This document shows, in pieces, positions 387-18,517 of a DNA stretch of 23,888 nucleotides. The stretch's first letter is position 1. Each line of letters starts with the position of its first letter. Made by a program: the position numbers and the translations under genes. The stretch comes from a virus, in the IMG/VR virus record IMGVR_UViG_3300030333_001576, positions 1 through 23,888 of that record; one strand, 5' to 3'. The notes beneath the pieces were generated by a model. That model ran no database searches. It worked only from the letters and a program-made list of their open reading frames with translations, and had not been told where the DNA came from.

Positions 387-1157
387 TTACTTAGTAAAAC
401 CGTCCCCTGCACCTACATGGATATATGGATCACCATAATTTATAGAAGATATATAACAATTCCTTAAAATAGCACTAGGATATACTTTATTTAATGCTAC
501 CTGAACTTCATCTTTACTTGGTTTTCCTGGTTGAGGGAAGAACATCTTACAGTAGTAAGTCTTTCCTCTCCAACTATACATTAACTCATATACATTTCCG
601 TTCTGAGCAGGAATTCTAGTTGTTGCTGCTTCTTCTATTTCTTCATGAGGAATAGTATTACCATCAGCATCCTTTTGATGATGTTCTTTCTGTAATTTAT
701 CTCTTTCTATAGCTTTAGCAAGTCTTTGTCTCTTTGCTGCTTTTGCTGCTTCATTCTCTTTATTTGAAGTTTTAGCATCTGTACCTACAACTCCTCTTTT
801 AGGTTGAGATCCAGTAGTTACTTTTGCTTTCTTTTTACCAAGAACATCAACCTTAGAACCTAATGCAGCACCAGCAGCAGCACCAAGTGGTCCACCAACA
901 GCACCACCTAATACAGCACCAGAAGCAGCACCCAATACTCCTTCATCTATTTCTTCCCATTTTCCACCTTTTTGCTCATACCATTTATATGCCCATGAAT
1001 GTGCTTTAACTCCATAAACACCAAATCTTTCTTCAGCTAATTCTTTTGCTCTTGTCCATAATTTAGGACGAGATGCATCAAAATTTGATTCTAGAATTTT
1101 TAGAGAAGCTTCTCCATCTAATCTATCTAGTACTTTTTCAACAATAGGACTTGCCAT
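387..1157 (-). CDS. Unknown protein with glycine-zipper segment, between gp16 and gp17
   Basis: I do not recognise this 256-residue protein. Residues 1-70 look like a small mixed, largely helical domain rich in Trp, Tyr and Lys. Residues 73-101 are almost only Gly, Ala, Val and Leu with repeated GxxxG/AxxxG spacing (a glycine zipper), which could pack as a helix in a membrane or inside an oligomer. Residues 105-160 are Lys/Ala-rich and probably helical or disordered. Residues 185-250 form an aromatic, probably folded C-terminal domain (YSWRGKTYY, NYGDPYIHVG). There is no signal peptide. A late-promoter-like CCTAAATA lies 20 nt ahead of the ATG and contains the stop of the preceding gene. T4 has no gene at this position. 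A virion, packaging-accessory or membrane role are all possible. The call as a real gene is firm; the function is open. Confidence 0.88.
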   Translation of the reverse strand: MASPIVEKVLDRLDGEASLKILESNFDASRPKLWTRAKELAEERFGVYGVKAHSWAYKWYEQKGGKWEEIDEGVLGAASGAVLGGAVGGPLGAAAGAALGSKVDVLGKKKAKVTTGSQPKRGVVGTDAKTSNKENEAAKAAKRQRLAKAIERDKLQKEHHQKDADGNTIPHEEIEEAATTRIPAQNGNVYELMYSWRGKTYYCKMFFPQPGKPSKDEVQVALNKVYPSAILRNCYISSINYGDPYIHVGAGDGFTK

Positions 1158-1177
1158 CTTTCTCGGACACTTTTTTA

Positions 1178-1185
1178 TATTTAGG
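1178..1185 (-). promoter_or_regulatory. Candidate late promoter for the glycine-zipper gene
   Basis: CCTAAATA on the minus strand, 20 nt ahead of the ATG at 1157, resembles the T4 late -10 element TATAAATA. Its TAA is the stop codon of the upstream coiled-coil gene. The spacing matches the motifs ahead of gp8, gp13 and gp15. TAAATA is common in AT-rich DNA, so the support is the repeated position rather than the motif alone. Confidence 0.5.
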
Positions 1186-2359
1186 CATTCATAGTTGTTC
1201 TAAACACTTTAAAGACTGTGGAATCACTAGAAGTAGGTGTTGCTAACAACCTAACATTACCACTGTCTATATCAGCATCAAAGGTAGCAAGACTAATTCC
1301 AGTTTTAATTGTTCCATATTCACTAATATAAACATTTCCTCCAGCATGAAGTAAGTTTATAGAAGTAGTGTGATAATCACTTCCTTTCTTAATTTGAATT
1401 TGATAAGTTGCAGCAGAATAAGTAGATGAACTAAAGGTATCTATTGATGCCTGTGCAGTAGAAGTTTTTGTAGAAGTTACACCTTCTATTCTAACAATAT
1501 TTGAACCACCTAAATCTATTCCACTTCTAGCAGTAATCAATCCAACAGAATCAATACTAGTTACATCCTCATAAGTTAAAGTTCCACCTATAGATACATC
1601 TCCACTGAATGTGGCATTAACAGCACTTATATTCCCACTAAATGTACCAGTTGTTCCATCCACATTTCCTGTTAAAGGACCACTAAAGGCAGATGCAGTT
1701 ATAATTCCAGTAGTATTAATACTATCTTCTGTTCCTATTCCAGCTGCAGCACCACCTACCCATTTACCAGTAGAGGATTGATATTTAAGAACCTTATCAT
1801 TAACTTTAGCAGAATCTCTATCTATATCATCTAAAAACTCAAGACGAACTTCTCCTCCACCACCTTGAGTATGGACAATATTTTTTAATACATCTATTTC
1901 CTTTCTTAATATAGCAAGTTCAGATTCTGTAGTATTTTCTTTTATTATTTCCTTTCCAGTTTTCTCATTAATAGTATCTAAGATTTTAATTGCATGTTCT
2001 GCAGTAGTTTCTTCTGTAGCAATTTCATCAACAGCAGGTTTAACTGGTTTTTCCTTACTACCAATCTCTTGTTTTATTTCTTCATAATCATCTTTCTTTG
2101 CTTTCTTTTTAGTCTTTTTCTTAGGTTCAGAGAAAATAAAATTCTCAAAAATCTTAGCATCAGCAACTAATTTCTTTCTTGCTTCCTCTTTCTCCTTTTC
2201 CTTTTCTTGTAATTCTTTTTTAACACGAGCTGTTTCTACTGCTATATCCTGAAACATACTTTCAAGAGATATTTCACCTATTAATTCTTTTTTCTCTTCC
2301 TCCTTTTTCTTCTTTTCTTCTCCTATTATAGAAAAGAAGCTATCCAGATTTTGATCCAT
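1181..2359 (-). CDS. Coiled-coil protein with fibre-type C-terminal domain
   Basis: A 392-residue protein in two halves. Residues 1-165 are very rich in Lys and Glu with coiled-coil character (roughly 15-70 and 140-165), broken by a Lys-rich patch near 80-95. A GGGG hinge follows near 166. The rest is a Ser/Thr/Gly-rich fibre-like part: LKYQSSTGKWVG, TGIITASAFSGPLTGNV, repeated TFSG(N/D), LTYEDVTSIDSVGLITARSGI, and a conserved-looking terminal domain (YHTTSINLLHAGG ... FKVFRTTMNA) that I associate with marine T4-like fibre and structural proteins. A longer reading from the ATG at 2371 is possible, but GGAGGT at 2369-2364 lies inside that extension and is ideally placed for the ATG at 2359. 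The gene overlaps the end of gp16. A collar, neck or fibre role is inferred from the neighbours gp13-gp15 and the coiled coil; it is not shown. Confidence 0.88.
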   Translation of the reverse strand: MDQNLDSFFSIIGEEKKKKEEEKKELIGEISLESMFQDIAVETARVKKELQEKEKEKEEARKKLVADAKIFENFIFSEPKKKTKKKAKKDDYEEIKQEIGSKEKPVKPAVDEIATEETTAEHAIKILDTINEKTGKEIIKENTTESELAILRKEIDVLKNIVHTQGGGGEVRLEFLDDIDRDSAKVNDKVLKYQSSTGKWVGGAAAGIGTEDSINTTGIITASAFSGPLTGNVDGTTGTFSGNISAVNATFSGDVSIGGTLTYEDVTSIDSVGLITARSGIDLGGSNIVRIEGVTSTKTSTAQASIDTFSSSTYSAATYQIQIKKGSDYHTTSINLLHAGGNVYISEYGTIKTGISLATFDADIDSGNVRLLATPTSSDSTVFKVFRTTMNA

Positions 2360-2739: not shown

Positions 2740-2745
2740 ACCTCA
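2740..2745 (-). promoter_or_regulatory. Shine-Dalgarno site of gp16 merged with gp15 stop
   Basis: TGAGGT: TGA (2745-2743) is the gp15 stop, and the whole hexamer is the ribosome site for the gp16 ATG 7 nt downstream. The same merged arrangement occurs at gp13/gp14. Confidence 0.75.
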
Positions 2746-3741
2746 AATTATACTACCATCAAATCCAAAATCATCACCAAATTCAATGAGAGCATTATCA
2801 TCAGTTCCTGGATAATTGATACCCAAGACCTGTGCTCCCTTAACATGATTCTGAACTGTTGTATTATCTTGAGCCCTCTTAACAGTCATCTTATTACCTG
2901 TTACAGACTCAACATACATCTCTTCTTGACCAATATATACATACTTATCTGCTTCAATCTTAGTACCATCATCTACTTCAATAACAGTCTCTAAGAGATC
3001 AACATTTTCAGCAAGAAGAGTTACAACATCACCAGTGTAATCCTTAGTTGCTCTTCCAGTTACACTATAAGTAACATCTCTAGAAGGAGCAACACCCTTA
3101 GCACTGGAACCAGCAACGTATCCAACAGAAACCTTCTTGATAACATCTCCAGTAACATCTGCAATAGGACCGAATACGTAAGTCTTAGCAGTAAATTCTA
3201 AAGTATAAACTAATGCTCTTCTAGTTTCAAAATTTCCTTCATAATCATCTTCCATTTGGATGTTATCTAATTGAATAGGAACATCTCTTAATTCTTTTAA
3301 ATTTCCCAAATACTTAATTGGAAGATTATAAGCAGGTTGGAAATATGGTAATATCTGCTCTACAATTTGAAGCATATCATCATTCAACTTTGTCATTATA
3401 GACAATTGAATCTTCATATTATAAGGAACAGGAATATAATTTTTATTTACTGTTGCTCCATCTGGAGTTTGATTAATAATTGTTTGAGTCTGTGTAGACT
3501 TTCTTGTTGGATCATATTGAAGTCCTAAAAATTCAAATGACATTCTAGGAAGTGTCATTGAAACAGGCTTATTCAAATCAGCCTCTTGTTGCATTCTCGC
3601 AAGAAACTTTTGAGTAGGTCCATAAGCTAAGGGAACTTTAACTATAGAAGAATCCCCATGCTTAATTTCCAACCCATTAAATAAAGATCCAAATCCAATA
3701 ATTACAGATCTGAAGATCTCGTTGTAAAAATACTCAAACAT
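2743..3741 (-). CDS. gp15: Tail sheath stabiliser and completion protein gp15
   Basis: In T4, gp15 forms the hexameric ring that ends the tail tube and sheath and docks to the neck. Here it has 332 residues against 272 in T4. The N-terminus MFEYFYNEIFR matches T4 MFGYFYNSSFR. IKVP-type strands and LPRMSFEFLGLQYD follow, then the near-identical family block MLQIVEQILPYFQPAYN (123-139). RRALVYTLEFTAKTYVFGPI (174-193) parallels the last conserved strand region. Residues about 239-310 add a small module (VYIGQEEMYVESV ... TVKRAQDNTTVQNHVKGAQV) that is not in T4 and resembles modules in two other proteins of this window. The C-terminus is acidic (FGDDFGFDGSII). No good Shine-Dalgarno site precedes the ATG; a TAAATA motif lies 22 nt upstream. 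Confidence 0.95.
   Translation of the reverse strand: MFEYFYNEIFRSVIIGFGSLFNGLEIKHGDSSIVKVPLAYGPTQKFLARMQQEADLNKPVSMTLPRMSFEFLGLQYDPTRKSTQTQTIINQTPDGATVNKNYIPVPYNMKIQLSIMTKLNDDMLQIVEQILPYFQPAYNLPIKYLGNLKELRDVPIQLDNIQMEDDYEGNFETRRALVYTLEFTAKTYVFGPIADVTGDVIKKVSVGYVAGSSAKGVAPSRDVTYSVTGRATKDYTGDVVTLLAENVDLLETVIEVDDGTKIEADKYVYIGQEEMYVESVTGNKMTVKRAQDNTTVQNHVKGAQVLGINYPGTDDNALIEFGDDFGFDGSII
2812..3027 (-). repeat. IDDE-type module inserted near the C-terminus of gp15
   Basis: About 72 codons (residues 239-310) with the pattern IxxGxExMxVxxVxGNxxTVxRxxxxTxxxxHxxGxxV. Similar segments occur at 7741-7945 in the DUF4815-type protein and at about 21545-21745 in the giant right-edge protein. This is a protein-level repeat that is not visible as DNA identity. 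Confidence 0.6.
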
Positions 3742-3771: not shown

Positions 3772-3780
3772 AAAATAAAA

Positions 3781-5199
3781 TTAAGGTATTCCAAATGGAT
3801 TCTTTTCAGTAAAGTCTAAAATAGAATCTCCTTCTGTTTGGAAGACATCATTTTCAGCAAAAGCATCTACCAAATCATCAGTATTAACTTTTAATATACC
3901 ATACAAAGCACCAGAATTAGAACCTAGAATTGTCTCTCCAACAACAAACTTCTTATCTACTATAGAAATTTCTAATGTGTTATTAACTGAATCCCATTCC
4001 TTAACTCTAGCAGTTGCTCCAGAAGTCTGACCTGTAACAGTTTCATTAAAGACATAGGAACCAGTTCCAACACCCACACCTGCTCCAGTTGGTGCTTCAA
4101 ATGTAATAGTTGGAACCTCAGAGTAACCAACACCAGCATTAGTAATATAAGCAGTTGTAACAACACCAGCAGAGTTAATATAACCAATACCATAGGCAGC
4201 AGTACTACCAACACCAACACTTCCAGGTGCTGATACTGTGAATGTTGGATGTGTGGTATATCCAGAACCACCACCAACAAGTGTTACTACTCCTATTGAA
4301 CCAAGTGTAGTAATTCCTACTGTAGCAGCAGCACCTACACCATATCCAGTAGGATCTTGAATCGTAATCCAAGGTGCTTCTGTATATCCAGCACCAGCAT
4401 TAGATATATGAATTGCCGCAATCTTTCCATCAGTTAGACCAGTATCACAATCAGTCCAAGTAGTAGAAACAGAAGCAACACCAACAGCATTAGCAGAACC
4501 AGCAGGTGAAGAAGATATACCAATCAAAGGTTGTGCTTGATAACCAGCACCCATATTGGTCATATAGATTTTCTGAACACCACCTGTAGCAACATAAGAT
4601 GCTGTAGCAGTAGCAGTAACAGCAGCTCCTATTAAAGTAAGAGTCTGGATATATCCTAGTTGTTCTACTTCATCATCAATAGTTTCAACTCCTGTATCAA
4701 TAACCTCATCCTCATAACGGAAGAGTTCACATCTAAGTTGATAAACGTAATTCTTTTTAAGTTGATAGAATGGTTGCTCATGCTCAACATACTTAATTTC
4801 AAATAACCTATCACCTAATGGGAAGTAAATAAGATCCCCTTCTTTAGGTCTAGTTGCTAATTCTATATTGGGTATATTTTTAATAAGAGGTGTAATATAA
4901 GTCTCATATCTTTCTCTAGAAATAACAAGAGTCAAATCATCTACATTTTGAATACCAAATTTTGATAGGAGTGTACCTTGTCCACCATATCCTTCATAAC
5001 TATCGATATATGCTTCAATAGGATAAGCAGCATCAAATTGAGATTCAATAACCTCTCTAATAATAGTATTTTTTTGAATATATCTTCTAGGAATATAATA
5101 GATATCTACTCCATACATCTTCAACTGTTCGTTGATAAGACTTTGGACTAAACTTTGTTCACTTTTAGCTCCCTGTAAGAAATATGGATTAAGTGCCAT
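3781..5199 (-). CDS. gp14: Neck protein gp14 with large repeat insertion
   Basis: Neck protein gp14 acts with gp13 to complete the filled head for tail joining. It is 472 residues against 256 in T4. Residues 1-165 align by eye with T4 gp14: GVDIYYIPRRYI (30-41), YIDSYEGYGGQ (64-74), FGIQNVDDLTLVI (81-93), EGDLIYFPLGDRLFEI (120-135) and VEHEQPFYQL (138-147), the last two very close to T4. The C-terminus (EGDSILDFTEKNPFG, 456-470) looks like a family tail. Between about 190 and 435 is an insertion with four GxGY repeats (217, 269, 311, 356) and a GETxxGxxSGA-type segment (about 385-435). The ATG follows TGAGGT by 5 nt; that TGA is the gp13 stop, so translation is probably coupled to gp13. Confidence 0.94.
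   Translation of the reverse strand: MALNPYFLQGAKSEQSLVQSLINEQLKMYGVDIYYIPRRYIQKNTIIREVIESQFDAAYPIEAYIDSYEGYGGQGTLLSKFGIQNVDDLTLVISRERYETYITPLIKNIPNIELATRPKEGDLIYFPLGDRLFEIKYVEHEQPFYQLKKNYVYQLRCELFRYEDEVIDTGVETIDDEVEQLGYIQTLTLIGAAVTATATASYVATGGVQKIYMTNMGAGYQAQPLIGISSSPAGSANAVGVASVSTTWTDCDTGLTDGKIAAIHISNAGAGYTEAPWITIQDPTGYGVGAAATVGITTLGSIGVVTLVGGGSGYTTHPTFTVSAPGSVGVGSTAAYGIGYINSAGVVTTAYITNAGVGYSEVPTITFEAPTGAGVGVGTGSYVFNETVTGQTSGATARVKEWDSVNNTLEISIVDKKFVVGETILGSNSGALYGILKVNTDDLVDAFAENDVFQTEGDSILDFTEKNPFGIP
3895..4632 (-). repeat. GxGY repeat array within gp14
   Basis: Residues about 190-435 of gp14. Four copies of the pattern [IV]xxAGxGYxxxPx[IV]x[IF] have their GxGY cores at 4540-4551, 4384-4395, 4258-4269 and 4123-4134, a spacing of 42-52 residues. 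Regular Gly/Ala/Val-rich strands suggest beta-solenoid or small beta modules. The module recurs in gp8 and in both giant proteins. Confidence 0.75.
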
Positions 5200-5204
5200 G
5201 TTCT

Positions 5205-5210
5205 ACCTCA
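5205..5210 (-). promoter_or_regulatory. Shine-Dalgarno site of gp14 merged with gp13 stop
   Basis: TGAGGT, 5 nt ahead of the gp14 ATG; its TGA (5210-5208) ends gp13. Confidence 0.78.
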
Positions 5211-6059
5211 AGCTATCATGTCTAGTGGAGGAGTCTCATAAGTACTAAGCATTTCATCACGTATTTCACTTAGTTCTCCTTGAGCATCATCATATATTTG
5301 TCTTCCATTTAATTCTATACCTCCAGGAAGTTTTACTCCTTGGAATTTTATTAAATTCTGACCCCATTGCCTTTTAACTAAAGCAGTAAGATATTTCTTT
5401 AAAAATCTATCATTATAAACTTTAGTATAAGATTCTGGACTCAATCCAAGATAACAATCTATAACCAAATAATCACCAGCAGTAACCTCATCCCAGTCAA
5501 TATCAATATATAACCTATCTTGTCTCATATTGAATCTACATCTGGTATGAGTATTAAGAAGGAAATCCATAGTTTCCAAATAACTCATAGCCATTGTATA
5601 TCCCAATAATTCCATTCTTCCCCAATAATATATGTCATTCATCATCAACTGATACTTAAAGCTGAACATGTTTCCAGTCATGCCCATTGCTTTAGTACTA
5701 TTAACTTTAAATATATTTTTAACTCCTATTACATTAGCAGGGACTTGTAGATAATTACTACTTTCATAGAATTTAAATTCTGTTGTTCCATTACCAGGAA
5801 TATCTGATGAAGCAGTCATAGATCCTATTCCAGATCCACCATCAGCATCTGCTGTTCCTCTATCAATATCTCCTTGAGTTATTTTATACTTTAGATAATT
5901 CTCTGTAATTCCATCATAATGTCTTTCTTGATAAAATTGGATGGCATCATCCATCAAATCCTCTAGTTGCTCATCCGCAACATTAATCTCTAAAACAGGA
6001 GCACCGTTCTGCCTAAGAGCATAGTCTATTAATTCTTGTCGTGATGATGGTTGCGCCAT
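5208..6059 (-). CDS. gp13: Neck protein gp13
   Basis: gp13 forms the head-completion ring under the portal, together with gp14. At 283 residues it is close to T4 gp13 (309). The N-terminus MAQPSSRQELIDYALRQNGAP and the acidic helix EQLEDLMDDAIQFYQERHYDG (30-50) are typical of gp13 in marine T4-like phages. VPANVIGVKNIF (106-117), the Met/Tyr-rich middle and FLKKYLTALVKRQWGQNLIK (219-238) followed by LPGGIELNG (244-252) complete the family pattern. A Gly/Ser-rich loop at about 70-92 is probably exposed. Identity rests on these motifs and on the position directly before gp14-gp15-gp16. A CATAAATA motif lies 21 nt upstream and a modest AAAGGT site lies 11 nt upstream. Confidence 0.92.
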   Translation of the reverse strand: MAQPSSRQELIDYALRQNGAPVLEINVADEQLEDLMDDAIQFYQERHYDGITENYLKYKITQGDIDRGTADADGGSGIGSMTASSDIPGNGTTEFKFYESSNYLQVPANVIGVKNIFKVNSTKAMGMTGNMFSFKYQLMMNDIYYWGRMELLGYTMAMSYLETMDFLLNTHTRCRFNMRQDRLYIDIDWDEVTAGDYLVIDCYLGLSPESYTKVYNDRFLKKYLTALVKRQWGQNLIKFQGVKLPGGIELNGRQIYDDAQGELSEIRDEMLSTYETPPLDMIA

Positions 6060-6080: not shown

Positions 6081-6088
6081 TATTTATG
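6081..6088 (-). promoter_or_regulatory. Candidate late promoter for gp13
   Basis: CATAAATA differs from the T4 late element TATAAATA by one base and lies 21 nt ahead of the gp13 ATG. Its TAA (6086-6084) is the stop of the preceding small gene. Late promoters of the form NATAAATA are described for T4-like cyanophages. Confidence 0.6.
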
Positions 6089-16216: not shown

Positions 16217-16224
16217 TATTTATT
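16217..16224 (-). promoter_or_regulatory. Candidate late promoter for gp8
   Basis: AATAAATA lies in the 32-nt gap after the fibre gene's stop, 20 nt ahead of the gp8 ATG. The leader that follows is A-rich with no Shine-Dalgarno site. It is identical to the motif ahead of the fibre gene and one base from the T4 late consensus. Confidence 0.6.
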
Positions 16225-16228
16225 AAGG

Positions 16229-18481
16229 TTATCTAAGAGCTGGGTAGATAAAGATAGTACCACCCATTCCAGTATGTGCTGTACACTGATAATATAGAGT
16301 ATCAGGAGCATTAAATGGAACTTCAAAAGTAATAGTTGATCCACCAGCACCATCATTATTAATTACACCAGAACCATATGCAGCACCAGTAGATCCATTA
16401 GCAGTGCTTTGAATTCTGAATGGATGAGCACCAGAAGAATTGCCATTAACAAACTGATATGTATTACCTCTTGCAAGGTATAGATCTGGATCATTTTCAG
16501 TAGCAGTAAATCCAACTCCTATAAATGTATAAGCACTAGTACCATTAGCACCTAATATCCATCTTCCACTAACAACTCTAGATGAGTCACCTGTGTAAGA
16601 TTTACCAGCACCAACTACAATACCAGTAGAACTACTTGTTACAGCAGATCCAACATTAGCAGTAGTTATATTAGCAGTAGTTAAGGTTGCTGTTGTACTA
16701 CCAAAGGTAGTAATAGTTCCAACTCCAGTAACATTTAATCCTGTCTGAATACCTGTTAGATTTAACCCAAGGGTATTACCATTAAGAACTAAACCACCAT
16801 TAGATGTAGTTACACCAGTAACAGTTAATCCATTAGCAGCAGTAATAGAAGCAACACTAATATCTGGAGTTCCAGTTAAACCTGAAGCAACTGTTGCAGT
16901 TGCAGAATTACCTGTACAAGATCCAGATGAACCTGAAGCATTACCTGTTACGTTTCCAGTTAAAGCACCACTAAAGGTGGTGGCAGTTAAAGTTCCGTTT
17001 GCTGAATTAAAAGCTAAATTAGAACCTGTTTTTGGTGGTAAATTTCCAGTTGCAGCAGTTACAAATAAGGGGAAACAAGTTGTATCAGTTGATTCATCAG
17101 CAGCAGTAACATTAGTTGCATTAGTTGCAGTAGCTGAAGTTACATTAGTTAAATTTGATCCATCACCATGAAATTCTTTTGCAGTAACAATTCCAACATA
17201 AGATCCAGCATCAATATTACCTTGATCTATAGTAACACCAGTACCAATTATAGCTTTAGTTAATGTTGGACTACCACTTACATTAGAAATATCACCAAAG
17301 TAGAAGTTAGAATAAACATCAGTAACTTGAAGTGATGTAGCACCAGTTACAATACCAACAGTAGTAACACCAGATACAGTTAATCCAGTTGTAACACCAC
17401 TTATATTCAGTCCTCTAACAGTTCCAGGAACATAAAGAGTTCCAACAGTACCTAAACCAGAAACATTGATATCTGTAAAGTCATTTGGACCTGCTTCTAT
17501 AGCAGCCTCAATTGTATCTCTGGTTGTAGTATCTAAAGAAGCAATATTTTGTAATTGTCTTGCACTACTGATGACTTGATTAGTTCCAACTTTAAATGCA
17601 GTAGCAGTAGCAATACCAGTGGTAAAGTTAGCATTTAAAGCACTACCACTACATGAAATACTTGCAACAGTAATATTAGGAGTACCCTGCAATCCTTCAG
17701 CATTAGCAGCAAGAGTAGCATTAGAAGCAGTACCAGTTACATTACCAGTTACATTACCTTCTACATTTCCTTTTAATAGAGATATTGTAGCAATACCAGT
17801 AGAAGAAGCAAAATCAATACCACTGGAATTGATTGTCATTCCAGCACCAATTACAGCAGATGTAATTATTCCACTATTAATATTTGCTGTTGCTAAATTA
17901 GCAGTACCACTATTTTGTATAGTTACTAAAGTTGCTGTATCAGTAATACTAATTGCTGTTGCAGCAATACCTGTATTATCAATAGTAACTGTGTTTAGAC
18001 CAACATATGAACCATCTCCAGTATCTCTAACTGCCAAAGAATTTGCTGTTACTGCACCACCAACATTAACTCCAAAAGAATTAATAGTAGTGATACCAGC
18101 AATCTTTGCAGTATCATATAAAATTGCATTTTGAGCAGTTATAATACCTGCTACATCATATCCAGCACTCGAAAAAGTATTAATTCCACTTATCTTAGCA
18201 TCAGTAGCAAAAGTAACTATACCTGCACTATAAATCTGTCTTGAGTTAATTACTGCTGTATTAGCAGTTCCTGTAATAGTAGGAGCACCAAAGGAGGTTG
18301 ATATACTCAGAGCACCATCAACAGCAATAGAACTAACAATTCCTACAAATAAATTAGTCCCATCACCCAGTTTCCCATAAACCTCATCAAAGTTTTCATT
18401 AACTTTAACGGCACCAGCTAAGAGGCTATCACCCGTTCCGTCATTCGGACTTGATCCAGTACTAATTCCTTGTTTCGCCAT
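16229..18481 (-). CDS. Fibre-like protein with C-terminal cupredoxin-like domain
   Basis: A 750-residue protein. The N-terminus (MAKQGISTGSSPNDGTGDSL, then KVNENFDEVYGKLGDG) is a head seen on many marine phage fibres. Residues about 45-630 are Gly/Thr/Ser/Val/Ala-rich fibre repeats (GIVTA, GITT, SGALTGNVTGN, LTGTPDISVASI), with an internal imperfect duplication. Residues about 648-750 form a separate domain: DLYLARGNTYQFVN, then HPFRI (His686), then ITFEVPFNAPDTLYYQC (Cys733), TAH (His736), TGM (Met739), GGTIFI. This is the strand order and ligand set of a type 1 copper cupredoxin, with C-x2-H-x2-M spacing as in amicyanin. It lies between a giant structural gene and gp8, so it is probably a tail or baseplate fibre; the receptor is unknown. 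AATAAATA lies 28 nt upstream, and no ribosome site is evident. Confidence 0.88.
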   Translation of the reverse strand: MAKQGISTGSSPNDGTGDSLLAGAVKVNENFDEVYGKLGDGTNLFVGIVSSIAVDGALSISTSFGAPTITGTANTAVINSRQIYSAGIVTFATDAKISGINTFSSAGYDVAGIITAQNAILYDTAKIAGITTINSFGVNVGGAVTANSLAVRDTGDGSYVGLNTVTIDNTGIAATAISITDTATLVTIQNSGTANLATANINSGIITSAVIGAGMTINSSGIDFASSTGIATISLLKGNVEGNVTGNVTGTASNATLAANAEGLQGTPNITVASISCSGSALNANFTTGIATATAFKVGTNQVISSARQLQNIASLDTTTRDTIEAAIEAGPNDFTDINVSGLGTVGTLYVPGTVRGLNISGVTTGLTVSGVTTVGIVTGATSLQVTDVYSNFYFGDISNVSGSPTLTKAIIGTGVTIDQGNIDAGSYVGIVTAKEFHGDGSNLTNVTSATATNATNVTAADESTDTTCFPLFVTAATGNLPPKTGSNLAFNSANGTLTATTFSGALTGNVTGNASGSSGSCTGNSATATVASGLTGTPDISVASITAANGLTVTGVTTSNGGLVLNGNTLGLNLTGIQTGLNVTGVGTITTFGSTTATLTTANITTANVGSAVTSSSTGIVVGAGKSYTGDSSRVVSGRWILGANGTSAYTFIGVGFTATENDPDLYLARGNTYQFVNGNSSGAHPFRIQSTANGSTGAAYGSGVINNDGAGGSTITFEVPFNAPDTLYYQCTAHTGMGGTIFIYPALR
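16232..16540 (-). other. Cupredoxin-like domain coding segment
   Basis: Residues about 648-750 of the fibre-like protein. The candidate copper ligands are His686 (codon at 16424-16426), Cys733, His736 and Met739. The family resemblance comes from motif order and spacing only; metal binding is inferred. Confidence 0.7.
16852..16969 (-). repeat. Internal duplication in fibre gene, copy 2
   Basis: Encodes GNVTGNASGS ... SATATVASGLTGTPDISVASI. It pairs with copy 1 at about 17661-17771 (GNVTGTASNATLAANAEGLQ, then GTPNITVASI). The copies are similar at protein level and diverged at DNA level. Confidence 0.6.
17661..17771 (-). repeat. Internal duplication in fibre gene, copy 1
   Basis: The earlier copy of the GNVTG ... 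LQGTPNITVASI block. The shared order is GNVTG, Ala/Thr/Asn-rich spacer, G[LT]xGTP[DN]I[ST]VASI. Confidence 0.6.
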
Positions 18482-18509: not shown

Positions 18510-18517
18510 TATTTATT
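18510..18517 (-). promoter_or_regulatory. Candidate late promoter for the fibre gene
   Basis: AATAAATA lies 28 nt ahead of the ATG at 18481. Its first two bases belong to the TAA stop of the giant upstream gene. It is identical to the octamer ahead of gp8. Confidence 0.55.

Follow-up and report, generated by a model that had tools for sequence, protein, structure and literature searches.

A region of the cyanomyovirus genome running from gp15 to gp18, with the gp16-gp17 interval in it, is said to have been described as hyperplastic by Millard in 2009. Here we analysed a 23,888-base virus record of a T4-like cyanophage (IMG/VR IMGVR_UViG_3300030333_001576; the whole of it is hereafter called the window), in which two genes lie between those of the terminase small subunit, gp16, and large subunit, gp17. 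One codes for a fibre-like protein and the other for a mosaic protein with a glycine zipper. Published passages describe the cyanomyovirus g15-g18 region as hyper-variable, with 4 to 14 genes inserted, and 'between gp16 and gp17' was named a hot spot in passages of Sullivan 2010 (PMC3037559), which credit Millard 2009. The window's genes sit at that same place in the same lineage, where the content varies; the published passages stress host metabolism genes, whereas the window's interval holds only the fibre-like and the mosaic genes. Variability at this location is already known, and the placement is not a novel one.

The internal proteins IPI-IPIII of T4 offer a second point of comparison. 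They are small, head-targeted, cut by gp21 and variable between phages. According to published passages, a short N-terminal sequence directs such proteins into the head (PMC9026906), its residues 4 and 7 serving for targeting and its residues 8 and 10 for cutting, and gp21 cleaves after L/I-x-E (PMC9026906). These T4 proteins consist of one module with a targeting sequence, whereas the window's mosaic protein has several linked modules and no targeting sequence; the cyanophage relatives of its C-terminal domain (hereafter C-domain) share the T4 type of start. In SPN3US and phiKZ, internal proteins have propeptides in which a relative of gp21 cuts at several short Glu motifs, as passages of PMC10052503 and PMC9026906 describe; these phages form a different lineage, and the likeness to the mosaic protein is one of description. 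Among cyanophage proteins, T4-GC119 (phrog_727; SSM2_109 of S-SM2 and gp029 of S-SCSM1) shares with the window's protein the C-domain, a mosaic build and hydrophobic-x-Glu sites, and in S-SM2 its gene precedes gp17, as the mosaic gene does here.

We give roughly even chances to the proposal that two probably late virion genes fill the hot spot in the window, one for a modular fibre and the other for a mosaic internal head protein. The place is known; the reading of the mosaic gene as coding for an internal head protein is new to us. The literature searched, which left out most subscription papers, nowhere treats cyanomyoviruses and internal head proteins together, and it joins cyanophages with capsid targeting only through the reference list of a T4 review.

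The interval and its fibre-like gene

A first-pass annotation, made from the sequence alone, had reported two genes in about 2 kb between the terminase subunits; both were confirmed at the stated positions, as was its contrast with T4, whose genes 16 and 17 overlap and leave no gap. Chance open reading frames (ORFs) were ruled out, since both genes are kept in relatives; on contig L010, the fibre is 96% identical to that of the window, and the zipper protein is 90% identical at one end and 92% at the other. A similarity scan with gp16 yielded at least 585 relatives, the best 80 of which supplied the gp16-gp17 intervals compared, so that these intervals are those of near relatives, some being near-duplicates. 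Both gp16 and gp17 were reached by 25 contigs, all of which have a gap, of about 1.7 to 6.6 kb. The C-domain of the zipper protein was matched in 25/25 of these intervals, so the suggestion that the genes might be absent from close relatives or always found elsewhere does not hold.

In a set of 89 intervals, partly chosen via other family members and with several contigs fetched twice, 87 contain a family match. The exceptions are S-PM2, whose interval has three other genes and neither of the window's, and P-SSM2, where gp15 and gp16 flank the T4-GC119 gene. The genes are not fixed at this place, as these two phages show. The order is gp16, fibre, small gene, mosaic gene and gp17 in S-SM2 and Bellamy, and P-TIM68 has the window's gene order, without the small gene. 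The interval of S-SSM7 holds a single 83-aa gene; in S-SM1, plastocyanin, PTOX, gnd and zwf are among the genes that fill it.

The fibre-like protein belongs to the tail-fibre family phrog_30742, which its residues 3-209 match at 2.8e-61, and it also matches phrog_6942 (1.3e-13); both families are matched as well by a 750-aa fibre encoded elsewhere in the window (16229-18481). Across the collected loci and the window, the first 160 residues of the fibre-like protein recur in 26 ORFs and its last 106 in 69, so that the N-part and the C-part seem to recombine. Its predicted model is weak overall (pLDDT 52.9) and confident only at residues about 291-391, with helices at 4-26, 32-76, 119-134 and 145-165 and strands at 189-391. 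Foldseek relates the model to T4 gp9, the long-tail-fibre connector (1qex; E 9.4e-6, 115 columns, rmsd 3.1), presumably through the C-terminal domain of the fibre; the likeness extends to one domain at most, with a TM-score to target of 0.30. The model also matches tailspike chains and, among predicted viral structures, cyanophage fibres and S-SCSM1 virion proteins. A search by sequence of the fibre profile against solved structures gave a translation factor as the best match (E 0.013), which is unconvincing, and mass-spectrometry evidence was found for no direct relative of the fibre.

The family matches and the predicted model agree with the earlier description of a coiled-coil/fibre hybrid. 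We regard the product with fair confidence as a virion fibre of ordinary modular type; it would consist of a beta shaft and a gp9-like terminal beta-sandwich, both predicted, and an N-terminal coiled coil, by which the fibre may be anchored; its position on the particle we infer. That the coiled coil fixes it to the neck, in the place of the T4 whisker, stays a candidate that we consider unlikely. The helical N-terminus is retained in related interval fibres, and passages of PMC2984593 report wac as missing from cyanomyoviruses and mention whiskers on one unpublished isolate; the statement that no wac is recognisable here holds for the ten window proteins scanned with Pfam and PHROGs. However, the fibre-like protein has no fibritin domain in Pfam or PHROGs, for which reason its identity with fibritin (wac) was rejected, and its fold matches are gp9 and tailspike chains. 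The annotation's neck or collar role survives as a candidate for the fibre, whereas the zipper gene looks more like that of a head-internal protein.

The mosaic gene and its putative cleavage sites

Fixed ends flank swappable in-frame cassettes in the mosaic gene, and the zipper is an exchangeable passenger. The DNA of L010 is 93.9% identical to that of the window up to position 962 and 92.4% from position 686; the alignment breaks at these two positions, L010 resuming after 8 nt, and the block between them is missing. The zipper cassette is present in the window, L009, L089 and L092 and absent from L010, L090, L091, L093 and L096. The middle is a short linker only in L010 and L093; L090 carries another cassette, which L092 combines with the zipper; a third insert accompanies the zipper in L089, and L091 has a fourth. 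The zipper was rejected as the core function of the gene, given the close relatives without it. Identity in the N-terminal domain is 86-91% in L010 and L090-L093 and 47-55% in P-TIM68 and L100-L102.

The glycine zipper named in the first-pass annotation can be placed at about residues 73-101, although its best score against the Pfam glycine-zipper families, 19.2 bits, is under the curated cut-off of 28.9. The model of the whole protein is weak (mean pLDDT 57.6), and no fold match in the PDB was obtained at E 0.001 or better. In the C-domain, pLDDT reaches 79-88 at residues 191-230; the profile of this domain gave a best E of 0.42 against solved structures. In L092 (ORF 3777-4838), the stretch of residues 86-248 takes in a middle cassette and matches phrog_764, a cytidyltransferase family (1.3e-12), so that the virion cytidyltransferase may share cassettes with the mosaic proteins.

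The C-domain is also found in larger T4-GC119-type interval proteins, namely those of S-SM2 (708 aa), Bellamy (618), S-SCSM1 (517) and S-CREM2 (490), which are strings of short modules including DUF6321, DUF192 (in S-SM2) and several unnamed ones. It is 37% identical to that of the S-SM2 protein over the domain. The mosaic gene ends 13 nt from gp17, a position that the T4-GC119 family itself does not always occupy. The window's protein is without the DUF6321 module and without a match to phrog_727, each of which occurs in 6/10 of the related proteins scanned. Because the C-domain is shared and these two features are missing, it is a relative of T4-GC119, not a full member. In P-SSM4 (L007 4484-8992), T4-GC119 is not next to gp17; its gene is found downstream of the cytidyltransferase gene, and its neighbours are genes with targeting-like starts or shared modules.

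Two putative prohead-protease sites of the L/I-x-E type, Glu72 and Glu176, precede the zipper cassette and the C-domain of the window's protein, and the zipper cassettes of L089 and L092 are preceded by a similar Glu site. Glu176 is invariant in the 27 aligned sequences (27/27), in a hydrophobic-x-Glu context; the next residue is Ala in 19, Ser in 6 and Val in 2, and the residue two positions before it is Ile or Leu, the exact L/I-x-E, in 17/27. The stretch around it is modelled with low confidence and is probably unfolded. Cyanophage major capsid proteins show this L/I-x-E pattern close to their N-termini and ahead of a conserved stretch, as FLAE/APTN in S-SCSM1, VLTE/APTN in P-HM2 and ILTE/TLQT in S-SM1 (a slash marks the putative cut), at which cleavage would occur.

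For motif counts, 214 family ORFs (188 unique) were reduced to 102 representatives, which are related, so that the counts are not independent. The motif [ILVM]xE[AGS] totals 307 occurrences against 121.2 in shuffled sequences (2.53-fold); it is found near 196/442 module starts and 102/392 module ends, with 80.4 (standard deviation, sd, 7.5) at random places. The stricter [IL]xE[AGS] and [IL]xE occur near 92/442 and 166/442 module starts, against 37.1 (sd 5.9) and 104.2 (sd 8.4), respectively. A site precedes five module types in 37 to 83% of their distinct contexts, over a baseline of 13%, and the zipper in 3/3; for five module types with 2 to 14 contexts, the count is 7/33.

As an internal head protein, the mosaic product would enter the prohead core, where the gp21-type prohead protease of the phage would cut it after Glu176 and perhaps Glu72. 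The small piece or pieces would remain in the head, and the phage could eject them along with its DNA. In this view, the cassettes that the fixed ends enclose would be an exchangeable payload, and the one present here, the zipper, could act on a membrane.

Capsid targeting, virion detection and rival readings

A DNA pattern based on the T4 targeting sequence recovers T4 ipII and ipIII, plus gene 61.1, and occurs at 16 places in 10/12 cyanophage genomes, against 0 for the reversed pattern; three of these 16 places, Bellamy 133470, S-B05 157230 and P-HM2 169747, are putative gene starts. A first, looser pattern, with 10 places against 3 reversed-control matches, was set aside. Proteins of about 105 aa with a targeting start (family A3) are encoded between gp16 and gp17 in S-SCSM1, S-B05 and S-SZBM1 and on at least 7 contigs. 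Homology links the body of these proteins with the C-domain of the window's protein (hhalign 92.7%, E 4.2e-7, 53 columns). By eye, S-SZBM1_192 is a near-T4 targeting start fused to a DUF6321-type end; by motif, L107 has a targeting start followed by a cysteine module and a DUF192-like part. An ORF with a targeting start is present in 21/89 intervals, and the window's interval has none. In the loci, 54 ORFs beginning with the targeting pattern have the same strand as the query match and 4 the opposite one; both counts include repeats.

Behind their targeting start, the small proteins encoded at L059:4033-4389 and L001:7266-7694 continue with residues (TPTN...) that look like the N-terminal part of the major head protein; in L059, the similarity is to the beginning of that head protein (phrog_696, 1.6e-5). 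In S-CREM2 (L275, 1-42000), a stretch similar to the targeting sequence, FASFMAE, occupies residues 19-25 of the Cas9-like protein gp12.

With a wider second pattern, five S-CREM2 proteins were retrieved, the SAM hydrolase gp6, gp13, the kinase gp14, gp136 and the cytidylyltransferase gp154, all of which are among the 52 virion-detected proteins of that phage (chance 6e-4). Some matches of the wider pattern contain stops or oppose a known gene, and that at S-SCSM1 44902, out of frame in gp031, was uncounted. In S-SCSM1, 1/2 of the targeting-pattern proteins is virion-labelled, the NMNAT and not gp030; in S-SM1, the single one, T4-GC190, is reported from virions (1/1) in passages of Sullivan 2010 (PMC3037559).

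The S-SCSM1 record labels gp026-029 and gp031, whose genes lie between terS and terL, as virion proteins, and does not so label terS and terL. Passages of the S-SCSM1 paper report 45 virion proteins by mass spectrometry of CsCl particles, which we take the labels to reflect. The virion proteome table of S-CREM2 includes gp137 and gp136, the latter with 8 peptides (24.1%). In S-SM2, P-SSM4, P-SSM2 and P-HM2, T4-GC119 bears the record note 'similar to Synechococcus phage S-SM1 protein'; GC190, detected according to passages of Sullivan 2010, bears it too, and gp16 and gp17 do not. We infer that this note flags the 41 proteins detected in S-SM1, so that T4-GC119 would be part of the S-SM1 virion. 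Two or three cyanophages are reported to carry relatives of the mosaic protein in their virions, and the early idea of virion parts is in keeping with the interval genes of S-SCSM1 and S-CREM2, which yield such parts. As a further virion-detected relative, S-SZBM1_190 was rejected, being phrog_1645. A proteome of the window's own phage was looked for and not found.

A number of observations weigh against an internal head protein. The window's mosaic protein starts with MASPIVEKVL and is without an N-terminal capsid-targeting sequence. The residue two positions before Glu176 is Val or Met, not Leu or Ile, in 10/27 sequences, and cleavage at the Glu sites of mosaic proteins is proposed from their sequences alone. 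The well-sampled CxxGxYYC module type is at baseline (5/34), and [IL]xK[AGS] (1.53) and the reversed motif (1.39) exceed expectation overall. The position-specific pattern was set after the S-CREM2 N-termini had been seen, and the wider pattern also yields chance matches. The first N-terminal tests in S-CREM2, on 203 proteins including 26/28 non-structural virion proteins, gave 2/26 against 3/160 (p 0.14) with strict and 4/26 against 16/160 (p 0.30) with relaxed settings, neither difference being significant. S-SCSM1 gp030 has a targeting sequence and no virion label. According to the proteome tables, S-CREM2 gp137 has only 4 peptides (4.1% coverage) and gp13 only one, and the S-SZBM1 proteome of 30 proteins includes 190 and 195 of ten interval genes and not 191, 192 and 194; in the 49 of 178 kb fetched for this phage, 191 fits the targeting pattern and 192 nearly does. 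Because the motif controls are mixed, our confidence in the internal-protein reading was slightly lowered. We propose only tentatively, as a possibility more doubtful than the main reading of the two genes, that the gp16-gp17 hot spot of marine T4-like cyanophages is partly an internal-protein locus. It would combine a polyprotein-like cassette array with small capsid-targeted proteins; once in the prohead, these would be cut by its protease at many Glu sites and then be injected as a combinatorial payload, with a membrane-active zipper peptide among the pieces here. The same code would load enzymes such as the cytidylyl/NMN-adenylyltransferase, a SAM hydrolase and a kinase.

The zipper protein might instead be a late-made external part of the virion (neck, collar or head decoration), its Glu motifs being plain linkers, a reading that we find rather improbable. 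It would agree with the single gene run shared with the neck genes gp13-gp15 and with relatives that are reported virion proteins, but it does not account for the homology of the C-domain to targeting-start proteins. Nor does it fit the hydrophobic-x-Glu motif, whose observed/shuffled ratio is 2.58 in the family (102) and 2.58 in gp22 scaffolds (3), whereas it is below expectation, at 0.67, in tail, neck, portal and terminase controls (17). We hold it still less probable that the Glu-rich junctions are recombination sites, made of short shared coding sequence, with no protease involved. Close relatives do swap cassettes in frame, Glu-rich linkers are present at many junctions, and module starts are already enriched in plain E[AGS] (299/442 against 180.5, sd 10.5), which counts against the internal-protein reading as well. 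However, recombination does not predict the hydrophobic residue: relative to shuffled sequences, [KR]xE[AGS] (0.62) and [AGST]xE[AGS] (0.44) are depleted, against the enrichment of [ILVM]xE[AGS], and near module starts they are only slightly over random (39 against 28.4 and 37 against 26.3, respectively). Recombination sites are also compatible with cleavage, and the two can coexist. That both products aid the terminase or genome packaging, the packaging-coupled function first suggested, is very improbable and found no support: only the position between the subunits and the presumed shared transcription speak for it, whereas the S-SCSM1 relatives are virion-labelled and terS and terL are not, S-PM2 is without both genes and P-SSM2 has T4-GC119 before gp16.

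Gene layout and what the locus may mean

Table 1. Features of the gp13-gp17 region, with positions in the window.
Feature	Position	Strand	Remarks
T4-type late promoter core ATAAATA	6081-6087	minus	21 nt upstream of gp13
gp13	5208-6059	minus	
gp14	3781-5199	minus	472 aa
gp15	2743-3741	minus	
gp16, terminase small subunit	2340-2732	minus	130 aa; phrog_445 5.6e-52; Pfam DNA_Packaging 31.7 bits, cut-off 25
Fibre-like protein	1181-2359	minus	392 aa; ATG at 2359; ORF open from 2371
Glycine-zipper mosaic protein	387-1157	minus	256 aa; proposed internal head protein
N-terminal helical domain of the mosaic protein	960-1157	minus	residues 1-66; conserved; modelled as three helices
Glu72, putative prohead-protease site	942-944	minus	IDE/G, before the zipper cassette
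Swappable middle block with glycine-zipper cassette	687-961	minus	missing from L010
Glu176, putative prohead-protease site	630-632	minus	IEE/A, before the C-domain
C-terminal domain of the mosaic protein	390-629	minus	residues 177-256; beta-beta-alpha-beta
gp17, terminase large subunit	2-373	minus	N-terminal 124 aa only, the window end cutting the gene; phrog_5989 1.1e-35

The gp16 stop and the gp17 start are 1,966 nt apart. If the fibre gene starts at 2359, it shares 20 nt with gp16; 23 nt separate it from the zipper gene. The late promoter motif NATAAATA was taken from passages of PMC2984593. Downstream of the core that precedes gp13, no further exact ATAAATA is found on the minus strand to the window end. 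Because of the gene spacing and this single core, gp13, gp14, gp15, gp16, the fibre gene, the zipper gene and gp17 seemingly form one late unit; both genes follow gp13-gp16 in one gene run, as expected from the co-production with the packaging motor that had been proposed. The motif alone is weak evidence, ATAAATA being observed 4 times in the window against 14.5 expected. Cores are also found at 16217-16223, 20 nt before a 523-aa ORF, and at 18510-18516, 28 nt before the 750-aa ORF.

Two neighbouring proteins show additional matches. Residues about 188-377 of gp14, the head-closure protein, match stretches of baseplate wedge and fibre families, and it seems to carry a fibre-like insertion. 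In gp15, the tail sheath stabiliser, residues 210-309 match the tail protein family phrog_1101 (6.7e-5), which suggests an added domain.

Cyanophage virion proteomes, in the published passages, list hypothetical proteins and enzymes for whose presence no reason is agreed. If the T4 rule of a targeting sequence together with L/I-x-E holds in cyanophages, head-carried proteins would be predictable from sequence alone. Such proteins would then probably be delivered into some of the ocean's most abundant photosynthetic cells, and the gp16-gp17 gap would be a place to seek early host-takeover and counter-defence factors.

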